A stretch of 64,000 bases of DNA, from contig SMSO01000025.1 in NCBI GenBank assembly GCA_004764695.1, positions 4,256,862-4,320,861 of the forward strand, read 5' to 3'. How positions within the stretch are numbered: position 1 is the stretch's first letter; each line of letters begins with the position of its first letter. A program made the position numbers and the translations under genes. This stretch comes from Schizochytrium sp. TIO01. Its lineage: Eukaryota; Sar; Bigyra; Thraustochytrida; Thraustochytriidae. The notes under the pieces are model-generated. The model worked only from the letters and a program-made list of their open reading frames with translations, was not told the DNA's origin and made no database searches. Shown here in pieces: positions 13,335 through 63,526 of this stretch.

Positions 13335-16193
13335 ATGAGTCATTATCACAGGCCCCAAGCAGCAACTCGGCTATCTTTTGCAACGAGCCTGATGTCACAG
13401 AGGCTTGGATGCCTTGTACTTTTCATCTTTGCTCATATCGTTCATGTTAGTGGAAACCCTCTTAAAGTTGGCATCTTAGCAAGCAAAGGTAAAGATGAGG
13501 CGGTTCTTCTTTGGAATAAGACATTTACGGAAGCGCTATCCAACTTGACGGGAGAAACCTTTTCTGTCTCGTATTATGGTTATCAAGAGATGCTGGAACC
13601 AATCGAAAATGGAGAACTTGATCTTGTGTTAGGAAACCCTTTCATTCAAACATGTGCAAATGCGATTGCAAGTGCTGCACCTATCGCAACTCTTCAGAAA
13701 GTTTACGATGGAGTCACTCTTTCAGAGTATGCAGGCGTTTTTCTAGCTCTTGCTTCAAATACAGAGGTCAATGTTATTGAAGATGTCAAGGATAAAGTCA
13801 TCGCTTTGGCTTCGCTAAAAAGCTTCGGAGGAGCCCAAGCTCAATTTCATGCTATGATTGACTCTGAAGCTCATCCATTTCTTTCTCCAACTCAGCTCAA
13901 AGTAACACATAGCCAGTTTAAGGTAGTTGAGGAACTTATAAACGGAACTGCAGATATTGGCTTGTTGCGTATGGACACGCTCGCATCAATGGTACGGAAG
14001 GGGCTGCTTGCTGATATCTCTGATTTTAAAATTCTGAGTCCCATTGCAGCAACAAATGATTTTCCCTATGTTCGTAGCACCGAACTTTACAACGAATGGG
14101 CACTCTTAGCCTTCCCACATGTACCCGAGGAGACCCAAGAAAAGCTAATTGAGGGATTGTTCAAACTTAATCTGAGCGCGACATCTGAGAGCTTGCAAAA
14201 AGCTGGATATTTAAAATTTTCTGCAGCCAAGTCATATTTCGATGTTGCTAATATCGAGCGCCAGCTCGGTATTCTGCACACTGATGTGACTACTAATTCA
14301 GAAACGTGCCGCATTTCCGACAATGACCTCGATACGCTGATTTGCCCTGATGGCTATGCTAAGTATGCAGATGACATTGTTGCCGAACATTGTGCTGAAT
14401 TGGCAGCAAGTAATTCAAAGTATGCTTGCCCAGATGAATATGAATGCATTTGCACGCCATGCCGAAAGTCGCTTCCAGTAGAAGTTTACCCGTTGGATTC
14501 GAGCTACTATCGTGCAGTTGTTAACAATGCAAATTTAAGTACGGAGGACTTTCTAATTAGCCTGGAAGACCCTTGTAGCCGCGTGAAGGTATGCGGTTCC
14601 TGGACCGAGGATGATGACACTTTGACGTTTTTGTTAGTAGACCATGTAGTTGAAGATCGCACGTCAGACTTTGATCCACAGTGGACCTTGCACAGCGACT
14701 CAGAGTCGATCAGTGGAAATGCAACTATGATAAGTGATGATAAAAAGTACTGGATCATTGAGATTCCAGGTCAAGATATTGCATCATTCGTGCTCGAACT
14801 TTTCGACGTTACGACTTCGCTAGATGTGTCCCCTGTTGTCATCAATGTTGATGAGAGGCTTGACACGGGCGATGTAGGCCATTTTATCAGTACAATAGTT
14901 CAGATTTTAGGCGGGGCAACCCTTGCATTGTCTGTTCTTGCAGCTCTGATTTTTCTCATATTCCGCAAGTCTCCAATAGTCAAGTCAAATCGTCTAGATG
15001 TCCTTCTCCTGCAATGTGCTGGATGCATAATGATGGGATACTCCAGCGTTCTTGTTGTTACCTTGGCAACACCTTTAGCTGAAATCCCAGAGGATAGACA
15101 TCACCTTTCTGCAACAGGAGAAACTGCTGTATGTTATCTTGAAGTTGCATTTCCTATGCTTGCATTACACTTGACAATGACAACCTTTTTCGTCAAGTCC
15201 ATTTTCCTTGTCCGTCTATACAAATACATGGCAATGAAGCGTGTCAAATTTACTTCACGGGGCCTTCTCAAAAAGCTGTTGCTCCTAAGTCTTCCAGATA
15301 TTATCATTTCTGTTGCGATGCTTGCAATTACGAGACCCCACGTGAAGAATTATTTGCAAAGATTTTGTCTTTCAAGTACGGACATCGGTGTGCGCCCTTT
15401 TATGCTTGCTTTGACAACCATAAAGATCCCACCGCTGGTTTATGCTGGGTGGGGCGCTTGGCAAACAGAGTCCTTGCCAAAACGTTTCAATAACTCGCGT
15501 TTGCAGTGGATTATTGTGACGATTGGTGTGCTTTATACTGCAATTAGCTTTTTAATTTGGGGTGCTCTAGACGAAAGTGTGACCGCTACGACAAAGAACA
15601 AAGTTGGTGTTTTTATGCTCACCGTTGCGCAATGCGTCTGTGTTCCGAATTTCATAGTTTCACCTGCATGGAGCACGCTTAAAAGCGTTCATCACCGCCG
15701 TCCTGTTCGCTCTGTACTTCGCTCTGTACTGAGCTTATCTAACTCATCAGGCCCGAGTGTTATAATCAATGGTAGTGTTTCAGGCGATGCTACTGTGGCC
15801 CCAAGCGGTTTGAATATTAAGGTGGGCGATGACGAAAAGTCAGAGTCGTTCCAAAATAAGGAAGCACAACAACTTACGATCGATCAACTCCTGGACAGGC
15901 TTGTTGAGGCAGCGCAGAAAAAAGGTAACGAGGTTGATCAGCTTAAAAAAACGCTTGAAACGGAGTCAGGCAAGCTTAATAAACTTCGTGACAAGGTTTT
16001 CACTCTTCGCCGTGAGATGGACGTGCGAAACCAGTCTTCTCTAGCCGCATTTGCGTTTAAGGGCAAACTTGTTTCCTCGTACCGTCCTCGGGGTTCGTCT
16101 GTCCTTGGTGGGAAACGCAACTCGTCGGTGGGATCCCCTGTCCATTCGCCAGGATCGGTTGGCTCAGTCGCTTCGATTGATGAAATCAAATAA
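13335..16193 (+). CDS. Class C-type 7TM receptor with a bacterial PhnD/TtrS-like ligand-binding domain
   Basis: The 952-residue protein starts at the first ATG (the frame extends upstream only to a TTG) and has a hydrophobic signal peptide at about 20-40. Residues 43-310 read as a PhnD-type periplasmic binding domain, closest in my recollection to that of tetrathionate sensor kinase TtrS. Examples are LKVGILASKG at the first strand, then ELDLVLGNP and SLKSFGGAQAQ. A Cys-rich segment follows, with C325, C337, C353, C365, C371, C373 and C376. After a linker (380-515) come seven hydrophobic helices at about 517-543, 553-577, 598-627, 646-665, 686-706, 723-743 and 757-775. C600 at the top of TM3 and C678 in the second extracellular loop match the usual class C disulfide. 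The cytosolic tail has a coiled coil at 845-897 and a Ser/Gly-rich end. It likely senses an extracellular ligand and signals through G proteins. The ligand is unknown. Confidence 0.85.
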   Translation: MSHYHRPQAATRLSFATSLMSQRLGCLVLFIFAHIVHVSGNPLKVGILASKGKDEAVLLWNKTFTEALSNLTGETFSVSYYGYQEMLEPIENGELDLVLGNPFIQTCANAIASAAPIATLQKVYDGVTLSEYAGVFLALASNTEVNVIEDVKDKVIALASLKSFGGAQAQFHAMIDSEAHPFLSPTQLKVTHSQFKVVEELINGTADIGLLRMDTLASMVRKGLLADISDFKILSPIAATNDFPYVRSTELYNEWALLAFPHVPEETQEKLIEGLFKLNLSATSESLQKAGYLKFSAAKSYFDVANIERQLGILHTDVTTNSETCRISDNDLDTLICPDGYAKYADDIVAEHCAELAASNSKYACPDEYECICTPCRKSLPVEVYPLDSSYYRAVVNNANLSTEDFLISLEDPCSRVKVCGSWTEDDDTLTFLLVDHVVEDRTSDFDPQWTLHSDSESISGNATMISDDKKYWIIEIPGQDIASFVLELFDVTTSLDVSPVVINVDERLDTGDVGHFISTIVQILGGATLALSVLAALIFLIFRKSPIVKSNRLDVLLLQCAGCIMMGYSSVLVVTLATPLAEIPEDRHHLSATGETAVCYLEVAFPMLALHLTMTTFFVKSIFLVRLYKYMAMKRVKFTSRGLLKKLLLLSLPDIIISVAMLAITRPHVKNYLQRFCLSSTDIGVRPFMLALTTIKIPPLVYAGWGAWQTESLPKRFNNSRLQWIIVTIGVLYTAISFLIWGALDESVTATTKNKVGVFMLTVAQCVCVPNFIVSPAWSTLKSVHHRRPVRSVLRSVLSLSNSSGPSVIINGSVSGDATVAPSGLNIKVGDDEKSESFQNKEAQQLTIDQLLDRLVEAAQKKGNEVDQLKKTLETESGKLNKLRDKVFTLRREMDVRNQSSLAAFAFKGKLVSSYRPRGSSVLGGKRNSSVGSPVHSPGSVGSVASIDEIK

Positions 16194-42853: not shown

Positions 42854-44119
42854 TTAATCAGTGGCCTCAGCGGCTGCATCTTTCTCCTTCTTGGAGGCTG
42901 CTTCTGCATCATCACGTGCCTGTTTGAGAGCAGCTTCAACCTCAGTCCAAACATCCTCCTTGGCTTGGAGGCCATCAATCTCAACCATGACAGGCTCATA
43001 GTAAGTGACAATGTTCCCAATGTTGTCATGGAATGCCTCGAGGCGCACCTTGACCTTCTCCTCGGTATCATCAGCGCGCTGGACCACGCGATCTTCGATC
43101 TCCTCTGGAGGAGGATTAAATTCAACGTGATAGCTGTTACCAGTTTCAGGGTCGATGCGACGTCCAGTAACGCGCGCCACCAAAGCATCATCTGGAACGT
43201 TTAGCATCAAGAAGAGATCTACAGATACACCGAGATCTGCGAGGGCCTCTGCCTGTGCGGCTGTACGCGGGAAGCCATCAAGTAGAAATCCGTGCTCACG
43301 GACATCGTCTTGATCCAACCGCTCGCGCACCGCTTGGATCACCAAGTCGTCTGAGACAAGGCCACCACTCTCCATTACACTCTTGACCTGTTGTCCGAGA
43401 GGAGAATTTGAAGCTACAGCAGCGCGGAGCATATCACCTGTAGAGAGGTGCGTAAGGCCAAAAGTCTCGCGAATCATCTCACATTGGGTTCCCTTGCCAG
43501 AGGCTGGGGCTCCGGAGATAATCACCCCAAGAGGCTTGAGCTTAACAGGACCATCGCCATTGTCTTCCTCTGCATCCTCCTCCTGAACGAGCTTAGCAAA
43601 ACTTCTGGCTGAACTAACTGAGAAGCGCTTGGAAAGGCGACTATGGAGCTTCTTGAGAACCGTGCGTGTAGAGAGTCGACGGGAGCCGTGCTCCCAAACA
43701 GCTTCAACAACAGCGCCCTTATCCCAGGTGCCAGTAAGCTTTGCCCCCGAAGCGTAGGTGTACACGCCCTCGCCTTGACGCATGTTGTGCTCGTAGTGTC
43801 CCTTAAAGACGTCGCCATTAACATAGAGCTCGGTGCCTTCGCCATGTTTCTGGCCAGACTCCCACTCGCCTACATAGCGATCGCCATTTGGGTACACGTA
43901 GGTGCCTTGTCCTGATTTGCCCCCATCTACATATGTGCCTTCATAGGACGCACCGCTAGCCCACGTGTAAATACCATCCTTTTTGTTCAGGTCTTCCCCA
44001 AACTCGCCTTCGAATTGGTCACCATTCTCAAACTGAACCAATGCCTTGCCTGCACGGGAGATCTTGGTGCCCTTTTCCTGATCACCATCAAGGTAAATCA
44101 CGCTCACCACAAGAGCCAT
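42854..44119 (-). CDS. MORN-repeat/adenylate kinase fusion protein
   Basis: The 421-residue protein begins with about five MORN repeats (residues 25-135; for example YVYPNGDRYVGEWESGQKHGEG). A basic linker (147-175) and an acidic linker follow. A full adenylate kinase domain occupies about 197-402. Its P-loop is GAPASGKGT (203-211), the NMP-binding part includes STGDMLRAAV, and LLDGFPRT is at 279-286. The lid, GRRIDPETGNSYHVEFNPPP, is the long non-zinc form found in AK2-type enzymes. It should interconvert ATP+AMP and 2 ADP. MORN repeats bind lipids or scaffold proteins and are common in protist cytoskeletons and flagella. So the fusion may place nucleotide balance at a membrane or axoneme (inference). 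The ATG at 44119 is used; upstream there is only TTG. Confidence 0.93.
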   Translation of the reverse strand: MALVVSVIYLDGDQEKGTKISRAGKALVQFENGDQFEGEFGEDLNKKDGIYTWASGASYEGTYVDGGKSGQGTYVYPNGDRYVGEWESGQKHGEGTELYVNGDVFKGHYEHNMRQGEGVYTYASGAKLTGTWDKGAVVEAVWEHGSRRLSTRTVLKKLHSRLSKRFSVSSARSFAKLVQEEDAEEDNGDGPVKLKPLGVIISGAPASGKGTQCEMIRETFGLTHLSTGDMLRAAVASNSPLGQQVKSVMESGGLVSDDLVIQAVRERLDQDDVREHGFLLDGFPRTAAQAEALADLGVSVDLFLMLNVPDDALVARVTGRRIDPETGNSYHVEFNPPPEEIEDRVVQRADDTEEKVKVRLEAFHDNIGNIVTYYEPVMVEIDGLQAKEDVWTEVEAALKQARDDAEAASKKEKDAAAEATD

Positions 44120-58342: not shown

Positions 58343-61300
58343 TTAGGTTTTCTTTTCATTTTCGAGCAAAATCACGTTGGCAAGGTTTGGATAGTCTTCA
58401 AAAAGGGTTGCCGGAAAAGCGACAAGAAGAAATTGTATATCTTGCATTTTCCGATTGACCTGAACATAGCGCTTGAACACAAAGAATGACCCAATTATTA
58501 GAAGTACCCAGTATACGCATAGTATATATCTGCCTCGATAGATTTGAGTCTCAACGAGATCCTCAAAATATTCTCGGAAGTATGTCATCGATTGCTCCAA
58601 TGCCTCAGCCATTACCTGGATTGAAATTTGCGACTCGGCAAGTGTGACAAGCGGTTGATCCATACCGCCAGAAAGTGAGATGAATTGTTCCATCAATGTT
58701 GCACTTGATTCTGTATTGTTTTCCAAGATTGCAGAAAAGGATAGGTTTGCCATCTCCTTGAAAAGCGACATTCCTCGTTGAAGACCAGTATCCATAGCTT
58801 CACTCATTGAGTTGTCTGGATATAATGTGCATGTCTCAAGACATGCAGATTCAAATAAAAGACTATACTGATTTGGGAAGGTTGACTGATCTTGCACTGC
58901 TTGAATACCTTCCGTCTCGTTTCCGTAGGTTAAAGTATAATCCAAGTGGGTAACATCCTTGAATGCAGAAGCTGCATATTCCCATTTTTCTGTGTCCTTC
59001 TCATACCATGCACTCCATGAGGCCTCAACATCTTCAAACAAACCATCTTCCATATAGAACATTGTCAAATGGGTCTTAGCCCATCTCTCACCTGCTGCAT
59101 TCACCATCTTTCCAAGTGAGAGACGCTCCGACAGCGAAGCATCCTCTACATAAAATGCAATCACAACATAAAGTAGAGTGACCAGGAAGGGAGCACTTTG
59201 GAGTGTTACGAGGGATACTACTGTAAACTGGAGCTTCCGACGCTCGTGTACCTCTCTCTTCTTGCGCTTGCTCACTCGAGCTTGATGGGCTGGTACAACC
59301 CGAACTTCACGCTTCGGTGAAAATGTTACTCTCGAGCCACGTTTATGCGAAGGTTCCGAGTCCTCGAGAAATGACTTATCTGAACCTTGACGCCCAAACT
59401 TGTCTCGGTTGCTTTGCTTCATTATTTCAATCTCCTCTGCCACCGACCGTTCGGCAATGCTCTGTGCGCCTGGAGGAATTGGCTGGTCATCATGACTCTC
59501 TTCGCCATCATCAAAATCATAATCGAATTCCTCCCTAAGGCGCTCTCTCACAGTGGTGCAACGTTCTTGTGCTTCTGTGAAGACCCGCTTCAAGCTTCGA
59601 CGTGGCACCTTAAACAAGGTTTTACAGCTTGTCTCGTATGACACATACGCCTCGCGGATTGTTGGAACTGTTACAAAGATTGTAAAGAGCAAAAATGCAG
59701 TACCTGTAGCAATGACGTTAGACCACTCATAATCACGAATAGATTCCAGCTCTGATGCAGCAATATTAGCATAGTAGCCACTGGCGAGATTAGAGCCCTC
59801 AAAAGTCTCCACGGCAGCATTATTTAAAACATATTGACACGCACTGTCACATGTATATGAGCTAAAATCGTCGTCTATACTTTCGAGAATTGCATATACA
59901 CTCGTAATGACTTGATGCACTGCCAACCATAAACTAGTGTATGAGAAACCAGTCCGTGCGTCCTCAAAAACTTTGATTGTAGGCTCAGAATTGAGTTCTG
60001 TCAATTGCTCGTAGCCATCATTTACGCTAGATTCTGTCACGGAGAGATGCAGTGCCAAAAGCTCTGTGGAATCATTCCGTAGATACTCTAAGAATGCACT
60101 AGCACTTGACTCTGAAATGTTATATTTTATGCCATGATTCAGGCCGTTCACCATGACAGCAAGGTCGATTAAGTAATAGCTACGTTTCACTGAGTTGCTG
60201 ACCTGGGTGATTGCTTCTTTCCCGTTCGCGTATGCGCTTTTGCGCAAAAACCACTCCATCACCGTTAAGGCAAAGCAAATACTTGCTGCTAAAATTGTTA
60301 AACGTCTGTACTGATGCACTTGCTTTCCTTTTCTTGCCATACCTCTTTGGACTCGCTCATAAACTGAGCGCTTGCGCCCGACCGTGGAATTCATCTCTGA
60401 AGATCCTAATGAGTGAGTTTCGTCTTCATGGTCATGCTCTTCGTCCAATGCCAAGGCATCAGCAAAATCATCCATCGAAGGGCGCTTTCCTTTTGAAATC
60501 TGAGTTTGAGGCCCACTTCGAACGAGTTGGGGCTGTCCCTCTGCTCCGACACTCCTATAGGATAGCGGGGCAACAGCAGCTTCGCCTGAAACATTGCTAT
60601 TGGCCTCTAAATAGCGTTTTCTCCCGAGAGTGCCGAACCGAGGTAGCTTGCGTGAGGCTGACCGAAAAGAGGTTTGCAAGTTTCCAACATTTCGATGCGG
60701 AATCAGGATACTCTCAGCTTCATCTTCAATATCGTAATCTTGAGATAACTCATCACTGTCTTTCGAGGGTTGTTTCTTTGTATCGTTTTTGGTACTTGCG
60801 TTGTCAAGACTTGCATTGGCAACACTGTCAGCGTCATTGAATGATCGACCTTGAGAGATATCATCAATCTCATCCTCAGCGGGTGTTCGAAGCTCATTAT
60901 GAACTTGAGTTAAAACTTTGCCAGTTGCATAATTGCTGTCTCCAGTTCTGGGAGAGTTATCAACTACGATTGGCGGAGCTGGGCTCTTTTCGTCATCGCT
61001 GGGCGCGGCTTCAATCGGCGATAAAGCTTGGTTTTGCTGGCGGATATTTTCGAGAAGACTGAATTTACGTGGCAAAGCATCCGTGCTGTATGCAACCGAA
61101 GAATCATCTCCAGGAGGCGCGAGCGCGAGTTCCATGTCGATCGTAAAAAGAGCGATGTCAATTTTCATCTCTGGTTTGTCCTTGTAAGCTGGCACCTCTT
61201 TATGAATGATCTTGGACTCAACCGTATAGTTTATTCCGTTGATCTTCATCGTACCTTCGCTGTCAGACGAAACAAGGTGCTTGAAGCTAGCTTTCTCAGT

Positions 61301-63526
61301 ATCGCCGTTCTCCATATACATTTTTAAGCTACCCATGTGCTCGTGTCGGTCCGGAACGGGGACTTGAAATACTTTGGTATAAGCTCCCTTCGACGCGAAA
61401 AGTATATTCAAAGTATTTCTGTCGATACAGAAGAAGTCCTGCTTTTCTACTCGTTTACGGAACAACTGTCCATGAAAAACGACCTCGCCAGATTGTTGAT
61501 CAATCTCAGATGTCACTTCTAGATGCGTTGCAATTGCGTAACCTGCAGAGTGCAGAGACCATACCTCTATCCGTCTCTGAAGAAATTCAGTAGTCATATT
61601 TAAGTGCCGAGCCAAAAATGCATCATGCATTCGATCATATGGGTAAGGAACGATTTTATTGATCGATTGACCAACCAGTTCATCAACGTTATTGTAACCA
61701 AGCATCTTACATAAGTTAGAACTCACCGCACGAATAATGCCGAGACTAGCTTCTTCACCACTGAGTGTCATTGTACCGTGAATGGTATTCTTTACATTGG
61801 TAATCCCAATGCCATCAGCACGATCAGCTTCTTCTTCAAGGGCAATAGCCTGGTCCATAAGTGCACCAGCCATAAATTTGTCGTTAATGACGAATTCAAG
61901 GTACATACTATACAAACGGAAAACAATGGGGGAGTCATTTGTAATCCTCATGAGCTGTTCAAGATGAAAATTTGCATTGTCAGATGCCCGACGGAGTTTA
62001 TGAGCTAGACGCAACAAACTCTCCCGATTGTGCGAACCCGACTTCAAGTGGCGGAGTACAGATACAATGTTGTCCATTGCCTGCAAGACTGTTTGCTGAG
62101 CCTGATTGATATGATTATCGAAGGCCATGAAATTGATGGCGCCGCCCCCTTCCACGCCTGTGTTTCTTGCTGTTTCTTGGTCAAGCTGATGCTTGAAAAT
62201 AACAAAGCGCTCATCAAAATGAAGATCAAGGCTTTTGCATTTTTGCATATATCTTTCAGAACGCAATGTGTCATTCCCGCACTCACGCAGAACAGTAGCT
62301 ACTTGAATTGCGATATAGGCACTCTTTGGAAAGTGAGTCTCGACGAGTGCAAGATATGCACCACGGCTCTTTTCCCAAGGAGTATGAGGTAACGGGTGAT
62401 GCAATCGCACGATCAGTTCACCAATCATGGGTGAGTCGACGACCGAAAGCTGTATGTGCTTTAATCTGCGAATACGCATCTCGATGAGCGAATCACACAC
62501 AAAGAAACATAGAGGGGCACCGACAGCAAATGCCATGAAGGCACCAAACCGCTCTTGGTCGTCTGTATAAGCCAACATTTCAATGACGAGACATAACGTC
62601 GAGAAAAAAAATGTTCCATAAACCGCCATCGAAATTTTGTTCAATGTCATGTGGTAGAACGGAAGATAATAATGGTAACCCACGGCCAGTAATAAAGCAC
62701 TCAAGACAATTTGTACAGCTAGAATTATGGGGTTGTCAGACCCGATCGCAACAAAAGTGAAACTCATTAAACCTCTGAGAGCAAGGGAAAGTGCGTGAAG
62801 CCGTCCATGGACTTTAGCCCCAAGGTCGCCACTTGCAGGGTTACGTTCAATTATGACCAGTACAGCCATGCCTGAAATTGTCATGAAAATAATGATTAGA
62901 ACGGCAACTACCGTGCTTAGAATTATGTGAATTGTTGCGCCGCATGTAATGCTTTCACTCAGCTTTGTTGTGCATTGAAAAATCTGCAAGAGGGAATCCA
63001 ATGCTGGTACGTAGAGAACTGTTGTCAAAAGATCCAATGCTATTCTTAAAGGACCAAGCAGCCAGAGTTGCTTTACACCTTCTGTAGCGAATGCATACCC
63101 TACGTATCCTACAACACCGAACGTGCAGGTTACGAATGCGAAGCTTCCCATGAACATGGTCAAAGTGAAGCTTGAGGTTGTTGATGAAATGAAGGAAAGG
63201 TTGCTTGCCTCTAAAATTGGAACAAACTTTTCTTCGACCCAGTCTGACCATGGGAATCCTGCTGATGTATTGAATGTGAAAGATAAGAGCTGGAGAAGGT
63301 TCATAAACTCAATACCCAGAGTAAACCAAATCGATGTTTTGTTTTGCCCTTTTTGCAAGAGGCTAAGGACACCAAGCAGTCCAAATTGAAACTTGCCCAA
63401 CAGTGAACCATATTTGCGAACGTTGCTAATTTCTCCACCAAAGTCGGTCTTCGCTTGGTCTAAGCCGAGGGCTTCATTCAGATATTTGCGCGGGTGAGAT
63501 TTATCAATCATCCTCGAACCTTTCAT
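58343..63526 (-). CDS. Giant multi-spanning membrane protein with PAS domain (TmcB/TmcC-like)
   Basis: This 1,727-residue protein starts at the ATG at 63526. Residues 45-345 contain about eight hydrophobic helices. Residues 380-570 are helical and resemble the TmcB/TmcC TPR-like region of ciliate and oomycete proteins. A PAS-like domain lies at about 583-690 (NLCKMLGYNNVDELVGQSI). A long acidic/Ser-rich segment follows (about 800-1060). The second half has four more well-separated hydrophobic helices. Two extracytoplasmic loops of about 140-200 residues lie between them (one with NISESSASAF, the other with YTLTYGNETEG). No ion-channel filter, kinase or cyclase motif is visible. The family is usually regarded as sensory, with PAS reading a cofactor or ligand. 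What it senses and what it controls are unknown. The long single exon is intact. Confidence 0.85.
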   Translation of the reverse strand: MKGSRMIDKSHPRKYLNEALGLDQAKTDFGGEISNVRKYGSLLGKFQFGLLGVLSLLQKGQNKTSIWFTLGIEFMNLLQLLSFTFNTSAGFPWSDWVEEKFVPILEASNLSFISSTTSSFTLTMFMGSFAFVTCTFGVVGYVGYAFATEGVKQLWLLGPLRIALDLLTTVLYVPALDSLLQIFQCTTKLSESITCGATIHIILSTVVAVLIIIFMTISGMAVLVIIERNPASGDLGAKVHGRLHALSLALRGLMSFTFVAIGSDNPIILAVQIVLSALLLAVGYHYYLPFYHMTLNKISMAVYGTFFFSTLCLVIEMLAYTDDQERFGAFMAFAVGAPLCFFVCDSLIEMRIRRLKHIQLSVVDSPMIGELIVRLHHPLPHTPWEKSRGAYLALVETHFPKSAYIAIQVATVLRECGNDTLRSERYMQKCKSLDLHFDERFVIFKHQLDQETARNTGVEGGGAINFMAFDNHINQAQQTVLQAMDNIVSVLRHLKSGSHNRESLLRLAHKLRRASDNANFHLEQLMRITNDSPIVFRLYSMYLEFVINDKFMAGALMDQAIALEEEADRADGIGITNVKNTIHGTMTLSGEEASLGIIRAVSSNLCKMLGYNNVDELVGQSINKIVPYPYDRMHDAFLARHLNMTTEFLQRRIEVWSLHSAGYAIATHLEVTSEIDQQSGEVVFHGQLFRKRVEKQDFFCIDRNTLNILFASKGAYTKVFQVPVPDRHEHMGSLKMYMENGDTEKASFKHLVSSDSEGTMKINGINYTVESKIIHKEVPAYKDKPEMKIDIALFTIDMELALAPPGDDSSVAYSTDALPRKFSLLENIRQQNQALSPIEAAPSDDEKSPAPPIVVDNSPRTGDSNYATGKVLTQVHNELRTPAEDEIDDISQGRSFNDADSVANASLDNASTKNDTKKQPSKDSDELSQDYDIEDEAESILIPHRNVGNLQTSFRSASRKLPRFGTLGRKRYLEANSNVSGEAAVAPLSYRSVGAEGQPQLVRSGPQTQISKGKRPSMDDFADALALDEEHDHEDETHSLGSSEMNSTVGRKRSVYERVQRGMARKGKQVHQYRRLTILAASICFALTVMEWFLRKSAYANGKEAITQVSNSVKRSYYLIDLAVMVNGLNHGIKYNISESSASAFLEYLRNDSTELLALHLSVTESSVNDGYEQLTELNSEPTIKVFEDARTGFSYTSLWLAVHQVITSVYAILESIDDDFSSYTCDSACQYVLNNAAVETFEGSNLASGYYANIAASELESIRDYEWSNVIATGTAFLLFTIFVTVPTIREAYVSYETSCKTLFKVPRRSLKRVFTEAQERCTTVRERLREEFDYDFDDGEESHDDQPIPPGAQSIAERSVAEEIEIMKQSNRDKFGRQGSDKSFLEDSEPSHKRGSRVTFSPKREVRVVPAHQARVSKRKKREVHERRKLQFTVVSLVTLQSAPFLVTLLYVVIAFYVEDASLSERLSLGKMVNAAGERWAKTHLTMFYMEDGLFEDVEASWSAWYEKDTEKWEYAASAFKDVTHLDYTLTYGNETEGIQAVQDQSTFPNQYSLLFESACLETCTLYPDNSMSEAMDTGLQRGMSLFKEMANLSFSAILENNTESSATLMEQFISLSGGMDQPLVTLAESQISIQVMAEALEQSMTYFREYFEDLVETQIYRGRYILCVYWVLLIIGSFFVFKRYVQVNRKMQDIQFLLVAFPATLFEDYPNLANVILLENEKKT

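Follow-up and report, generated by a model that had tools for sequence, protein, structure and literature searches.

The ANF-type flytrap is not universal among the fungal class C G-protein-coupled receptors (GPCRs) described in the literature (PMC3251606, PMC5168858). Receptors carrying OpuAC, LysR_substrate, PBP_like_2, SBP_bac_1 and BMP domains were reported in fungi (Krishnan 2012, PMC3251606), the last of these sharing a Pfam clan with ANF according to that report, and almost half of the receptors described from gut fungi bear a type II domain like those of the binding proteins for sugar uptake (Seppala 2016, PMC5168858). Diatom receptors are reported to carry PBP1 and Cache domains (PMC3727952), and PhnD-like domains are described on the sensors TtrS and ThsS (PMC5408782, PMC11293645). 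The stretch of DNA analysed here, 64,000 nucleotides long and hereafter called the window, brings these themes together: analysis confirmed the reading of an earlier note that a PhnD-family domain is joined to a class C GPCR core, an arrangement that is real and unusual (Table 1).

The receptor is encoded by one uninterrupted frame running from ATG to stop. The listing of open reading frames gives it 988 residues by starting at an upstream TTG, and Met20 is a plausible alternative start that, judged by eye, would yield a more usual signal peptide. Because the five alternative frames across the gene contain 32 to 69 stops each, the openness of the 952-residue frame is not due to chance. An assembly or gene-model error fusing two genes could be suspected from base composition, the third-position GC of the N-terminal part (0.357) lying below that of the core (0.400) and just below the lowest value among 13 other frames of the window (0.374); against this stand the 952 codons in a single frame and the fact that most other class C genes of the genome are likewise long single frames, and such an artefact is very improbable. 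The earlier note had also claimed the single frame, a Cys-rich segment and a cytosolic coiled coil, all of which were borne out, the Cys-rich segment by its seven Cys residues and the coiled coil by a helix at residues 849-910 of the structural model and a heptad score over residues 846-905 that was equalled by 15 of 10,000 shuffles. Its signal peptide is retained as probable, the hydrophobic stretch being present and the call being made from hydropathy. The model of the full-length receptor (mean pLDDT 56.7) further contains the strand-rich spacer and the core helices, and a genome-wide search at E 0.1 with residues 311-515 found nothing besides the receptor itself. The window gave no Rfam or tRNA match, and matches in a sigma-70 scan stayed at chance level.

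Table 1. Features of the receptor gene, in positions of the window.
Feature	Position	Strand	Evidence
Whole open frame, 952 aa; alternative start Met20 (13392)	13335..16193	+	Frame and stop counts
N-terminal hydrophobic stretch, residues ~15-43, probable signal peptide	13377..13463	+	Hydropathy only
PhnD-family (PF12974) binding domain, residues 46-299	13470..14231	+	Pfam, NCBIfam, AlphaFold2, Foldseek
FGG, residues 164-166, aligned with the STS that binds phosphite in Te_PtxB	13824..13832	+	5jvb alignment
Arg212 and Asp214 (RMD, residues 212-214)	13968..13976	+	Alignment A5
Tyr245 and STELYNEW motif, residues 245-255	14067..14099	+	Alignment
Cys-rich segment, residues 325-376, 7 Cys	14307..14462	+	Residue count
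Strand-rich spacer, residues 382-478	14478..14768	+	Low-confidence model
Class C core, seven helices, residues ~512-780, including C600 and C678	14868..15674	+	Pfam, hydropathy, model, alignment
Tail coiled coil, residues 849-910	15879..16064	+	Model and heptad score

Membership of the N-terminal domain in the PhnD family is established by a PF12974 match well over the curated cut-off (E 9.9e-23; 81.2 bits against 27), the only such match in the whole genome. AlphaFold2, run on residues 43-315 with an alignment of 51 rows, returned a type II fold at pLDDT 90.1 and pTM 0.84, and a Foldseek search with this prediction placed PtxB first (E 4.6e-16), followed by PhnD, ArrX and HtxB; the highest TM-scores among the 50 Foldseek rows listed were 0.74/0.76, to a partly open HtxB. 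No TtrS structure was among the PDB-profile and Foldseek matches listed, and searching PDB sequences with the full-length receptor gave a single match at E 0.4. The NCBIfam models ranked TtrS first (E 6.6e-12), ahead of a general phosphate/phosphite/phosphonate binding family (1.5e-5) and PhnD (5.8e-4), all three scoring below their own cut-offs. The TtrS equivalog NF040750 reached 44.7 bits through the domain only, its cut-off of 750 bits being set across the whole kinase, and nine bacterial relatives tested against it likewise scored below 750 bits.

Bacterial relatives of the domain are widespread and distant. Matches were found in 25 plasmid records at 22-26% identity; in the six of these loci that were examined, the matching gene in each case carries an HATPase match and in five a response regulator follows (L050 being the exception), while L047 and L049 adjoin DsrO and NrfD-like genes. 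In three phyla, 39 of 398, 12 of 292 and 63 of 297 genomes contain matches. A scan of genome contigs with the window domain alone yielded 20 stretches, none a relative, and a scan of viral contigs only one partial match of 64 codons. Long bacterial matches do not exceed 33% identity, with one 65-residue match at 38%, and no donor of the domain can be named. For phylogenetic analysis, 134 of 144 bacterial hits covering at least 170 profile positions were kept and thinned to 95, which with 12 transporter rows and the window gave 108; five long or doubtful rows (L155, L133, L150, L134, L051) were removed, and 60 of the remaining 103 entered a careful tree. In this tree 48 rows including the window are split from the 12 transporter-side rows with support of 99/95, and the window lies within an inner group of 42 rows (96/92), without a supported position inside that group and without a close relative, on a branch of length 2.4.

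The residues of the domain point in the same direction. The FGG, Arg212 and STxLYxxW of the TtrS-like branch are all present in the window domain, and the STxLY motif occurs in 72 of 103 rows overall, in none of 11 transporter rows, and in 31 of the 40 loci listed from the three-phyla genome searches with the window domain. The motif is over-represented in the 80 bacterial loci behind alignment A5 because ST[PVM]LYPDW was itself a selection pattern; those 80 are the best 80 of 123, chosen by two patterns, and 50 of them make up A5. The domain resembles TtrS-like sensors more than transporters, a kinship that the sequences suggest, not beyond doubt. The rival reading, that the domain derives from a binding protein standing alone (part of a transporter, or an ArrX-type sensor partner) and that its likeness to sensors reflects shared ancestry or long-branch attraction, draws on an approximately unbiased (AU) test in which a grouping of the window and the 12 transporter-side rows was not rejected (p 0.13), and on the best solved-structure matches, which are transporter proteins, no TtrS structure being among the matches listed. 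In addition, of the seven relatives that score best, five (L188-L192) stand alone in frames of 295-336 residues, and among the 11 sampled loci with Asp at position 214 and Tyr or Phe at 245 (the Asp class, to which the window belongs) an HATPase match is found in two and in none of the other nine; for these reasons a stand-alone protein may have been the source. Weighing against it are the supported split from the transporter rows, the TtrS model standing well ahead of PhnD, and the STxLY motif being kept, and we judge this source rather unlikely. Of the TtrS kinship proposed in the earlier note, then, the first rank among NCBIfam models stands, the tree placement favours it, and the AU test leaves the transporter side in play. 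L188, the sole one of the five stand-alone frames tested, has TtrS as its first NCBIfam match, and 75 of the 134 bacterial rows carry an HATPase match in the same frame, some loci being incomplete at their ends. As a side observation, six proteobacterial loci of the Asp/Tyr class (L061, L062, L063, L065, L066 and L068) encode PhnD-domain frames of ~421-445 residues with no kinase match in the locus, and the two that were scanned (L061 and L063) have no Pfam domain besides PhnD. The best-scoring bacterial relative of the window domain, L187, is a kinase combining PAS parts with a PhnD domain, before which lies an ABC_sub_bind match just below cut-off.

The earlier note had guessed a small anion such as a sulfur oxyanion, phosphonate or phosphite as ligand, a proposal that has precedent in TtrS, which responds to tetrathionate, and in the PhnD kin reported to bind phosphite and phosphonates (PMC5408782, PMC11293645, PMC5700983). 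Phosphite binding by Te_PtxB is attributed to an STS motif, a His and a capping Tyr in the residue list of PMC5700983. In a profile alignment to this protein (5jvb), FGG 164-166 of the window domain falls on Ser130-Thr131-Ser132, Gln194 on His160 and Phe243 on the capping Tyr208, so that the phosphite/phosphonate signature is replaced throughout; an alignment to 5o2j offsets the FGG stretch by one. Tyr83, at the place of Te_PtxB Tyr55, is kept and speaks for a phosphite-type ligand. In the 50 bacterial rows of A5 the FGG positions hold F in 44, G in 44 and G in 50, and the His160 place is Met in 17, Gln in 16 and His in nine. Arg at position 212 occurs in 49 of the 50. The window domain keeps FGG, Arg212, Ser248, Leu251, Tyr252 and Trp255 of the bacterial rows, and departs from their common residues at Pro253 (Asn) and Trp295 (Phe).

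Positions 214 and 245 co-vary among the relatives. Both are Cys in 23 of the 50 rows and a single Cys is seen in none, while Asp/Tyr, as in the window, occurs in seven and Asp/Phe in one; in the larger set of 134 rows, Cys/Cys is seen in 50 and a lone Cys, at 245, in L196. Asp214, Tyr245 and Gln194 of the window recur together in 10 rows, the top Asp-class rows being Asp/Phe/His. Among 85 sampled loci, TtrB-like genes were detected in the flanks of 16 of 50 Cys-pair loci, none of 11 of the Asp class, none of 22 of the Gly class and one of two others, and TtrC-like genes in 16 of the 50 Cys-pair loci and nowhere else, counts in which flank lengths differ and one hit is a self-match, the queries having been taken from L070. 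Of the 17 loci in this sample that have a TtrB-like gene nearby, 16 accordingly carry the Cys pair; the window lacks it, having Asp214 and Tyr245. Cys/Cys at these positions could serve as a signature of tetrathionate-type sensors (bacterial loci L046-L196). Mean bit scores against the window domain were 78.3 for the Asp, 61.5 for the Gly and 50.2 for the Cys class in the plasmid and genome-contig set, and 89.8 for Asp, 73.7 for Gly and 71.6 for others in the three-phyla set, whose top row, L187, has Asp/Leu. Holding the window with nine Cys-pair rows of the tree was rejected by the AU test (p 0.0007). The Cys pair is a putative tetrathionate marker by gene neighbourhood and has no bearing on thiosulfate. 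Since the residues linked to these ligands are changed and the Cys pair is absent, the earlier guess is not supported as regards tetrathionate, phosphite or phosphonate: tetrathionate and phosphite are unlikely ligands in their known binding modes, and a receptor for tetrathionate, thiosulfate, phosphite or phosphonate is decidedly unlikely overall. An anion of some kind would nonetheless be a likely ligand, as the kept Arg212 suggests.

The membrane part of the protein matches PF00003 (7tm_3) at residues 518-752 over the curated cut-off (E 1.5e-14; 54.7 bits against 33.5), and helix 7 lies outside the best-matching stretch, as the profile is covered at 7-223 of 251. No ANF match was found in the receptor by Pfam; a flytrap may have been replaced, as the earlier note proposed, and the horizontal transfer that it suggested is likewise conjectural. 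The seven helices of the earlier note are upheld for the most part: hydropathy above 1.5 marks six, and helix 5 (~686-710) appears just as two short helices in the low-confidence model. Its class C disulfide pair is well founded: among the other class C proteins of the genome, all 35 aligned rows have Cys at the place of C600 and 34 have it at that of C678 (35 of the 36 other matches were aligned, L009, which is split over frames, being omitted). Lys621, conserved in 34 of the 35, is kept. At position 720 the window receptor has Asn against Glu in 33 of 35 rows, and at 778 Ala against Lys in 27 and Arg in seven; we take these positions to be the Glu before helix 6 and the Pro-Lys in helix 7, class C motifs. 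In class C receptors of animals, both motifs are important for signalling. The LPKRFNN loop resembles a class C loop motif, and the pattern tried for it is weak evidence because it was found in only one of the 35 other rows in addition to the window. In a class C tree the core has a branch of length 3.26 and no resolved placement. A recent domain swap between paralogues was rejected as a candidate, the core being at most 19% identical to others over 264 tree columns; BLAST pieces against other class C proteins show 19-58% identity over 17-284 residues, and the three with E <0.001 against the whole protein 23-28%.

Coupling of the receptor may, from these residues, be altered. It could bind ligand without the usual G-protein signalling, as a decoy, a heterodimer partner or a protein signalling through its coiled-coil tail, a reading to which Asn720 and Ala778, the long branch of the seven-helix part and the tail coiled coil all lend weight. 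The conserved Cys pair and Lys621 and the score of the core above the 7tm_3 cut-off argue the other way, and we hold it to be fairly unlikely. The genome supplies 13 G-alpha matches over cut-off, one of them with in-frame stops, and we infer that the window receptor would couple to a G protein.

The genome searched comprises 64.06 Mb in 37 contigs. It encodes a PfaA-type polyunsaturated fatty-acid synthase that, with its in-frame neighbours, scores 1157.4 bits against a cut-off of 1010.1, and the preceding frame on the same contig (C4) contributes a further 925.7 bits; in 14 control genomes PfaA matches were found in 11, none over the cut-off. A eukaryote with a PfaA-type synthase points to the thraustochytrids. 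The genome thus looks thraustochytrid and the host is probably a protist, in line with the original proposal and with the thraustochytrid genome paper (PMC6050695), which reports the class C domain IPR017978 to be enriched in this group. At least 37 7tm_3 matches, the window's included, are present. The N-terminal parts of the other 36 match ANF in 10, OpuAC in five, PBP_like_2 in two, Peripla_BP_6 alone in one, Cache in four (L014 below cut-off) and an MCP-like PDC in one, and 13 have no binding or sensing domain over cut-off, L035 and L036 having weak Peripla_BP_6 or OpuAC matches below it. A profile of the sensor alignment gave probabilities below 1% with the N-terminal parts of each of 16 other class C proteins, a comparison that is insensitive, as known type II domains among the 16 were also missed. 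The five OpuAC receptors (L027, L029, L030, L031 and L033) lie within 836-888 kb of contig C7 and form one clade (100/100), a local expansion. In L023, L010, L014, L038 and L040, class C cores are combined with matches to Cache or an MCP-like PDC domain (L014 below cut-off); bacterial chemoreceptors commonly carry this sensing fold. Elsewhere in the window, inspection by eye found a frame joining MORN-type repeats to adenylate kinase (42854-44119, minus strand) and one 1727-residue frame with many hydrophobic stretches (58343-63526, minus strand).

The explanation we favour, with confidence somewhat above even, is a receptor at the cell surface of a thraustochytrid-like protist. Its outer part would be a type II binding domain with two lobes, belonging within the PhnD family to the TtrS-like branch, and the bacterial members of that branch that were sampled are mostly, not always, attached to histidine kinases. 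The domain, presumably of bacterial origin, would bind a small anion, probably an oxyanion, between its lobes and close on it, this ligand being other than tetrathionate, phosphite or phosphonate in their known binding modes. Closure would be relayed through the Cys-rich and strand-rich spacer to the class C seven-helix core, which would hand the signal on to a G-alpha protein of the cell; the tail coiled coil may serve for dimerisation. A bolder reading, which we hold to be less likely than not, has the sensing domain taken over by a eukaryote from a bacterial two-component sensor and not from a transporter; its output would have been switched from a histidine kinase to a G-protein-linked seven-helix core, and the resulting GPCR would respond to an inorganic or small oxyanion that no known GPCR senses. 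If so, class C cores would accept two-component-type sensing domains, which would favour a plug-in picture of these receptors. As a eukaryotic receptor for an inorganic anion, the window receptor is a concrete candidate, and the residue classes among its bacterial relatives allow the question of ligand to be put directly to a single soluble domain.

Set beside known systems, the receptor appears to belong to a kind already known, and its PhnD-domain variant appears new. A pairing of PF12974 with PF00003 (7tm_3 with Phosphonate-bd) was not found in the literature by domain name or accession, subscription journals falling mostly outside this scope, and among the matches listed in broader searches no title or abstract start describes such a receptor. 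The string 'phosph' does not occur in the main text of PMC3251606, nor 'phosphonate' in PMC5168858 or in the main texts of PMC12716839, PMC12842992 and PMC3727952. Of the novelty first claimed, therefore, the PhnD variant survives, whereas other bacterial type II domains on class C cores are published and occur in the same genome. TtrS-type sensor histidine kinases (TtrS, ThsS) probably share the domain branch and have the domain in the same extracellular, N-terminal position, but have a histidine kinase output, show 18-26% identity to the window in A5 and, in the Cys-pair class, differ at 214/245. PtxB, PhnD, HtxB and ArrX share the fold (Foldseek E down to 4.6e-16); unlike the window domain they are stand-alone, and the window has other residues in place of the phosphite-binding STS, His and capping Tyr. 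The BMP-bearing Grl receptors reported from Dictyostelium (PMC10445921) likewise join a bacterial-type binding domain to a protist class C core, the BMP domain being of a different fold type from the PhnD domain. The reported fungal class C receptors are similar in design, a bacterial type II binding domain preceding the seven-helix core; their hosts are fungi, whereas that of the window receptor looks stramenopile.
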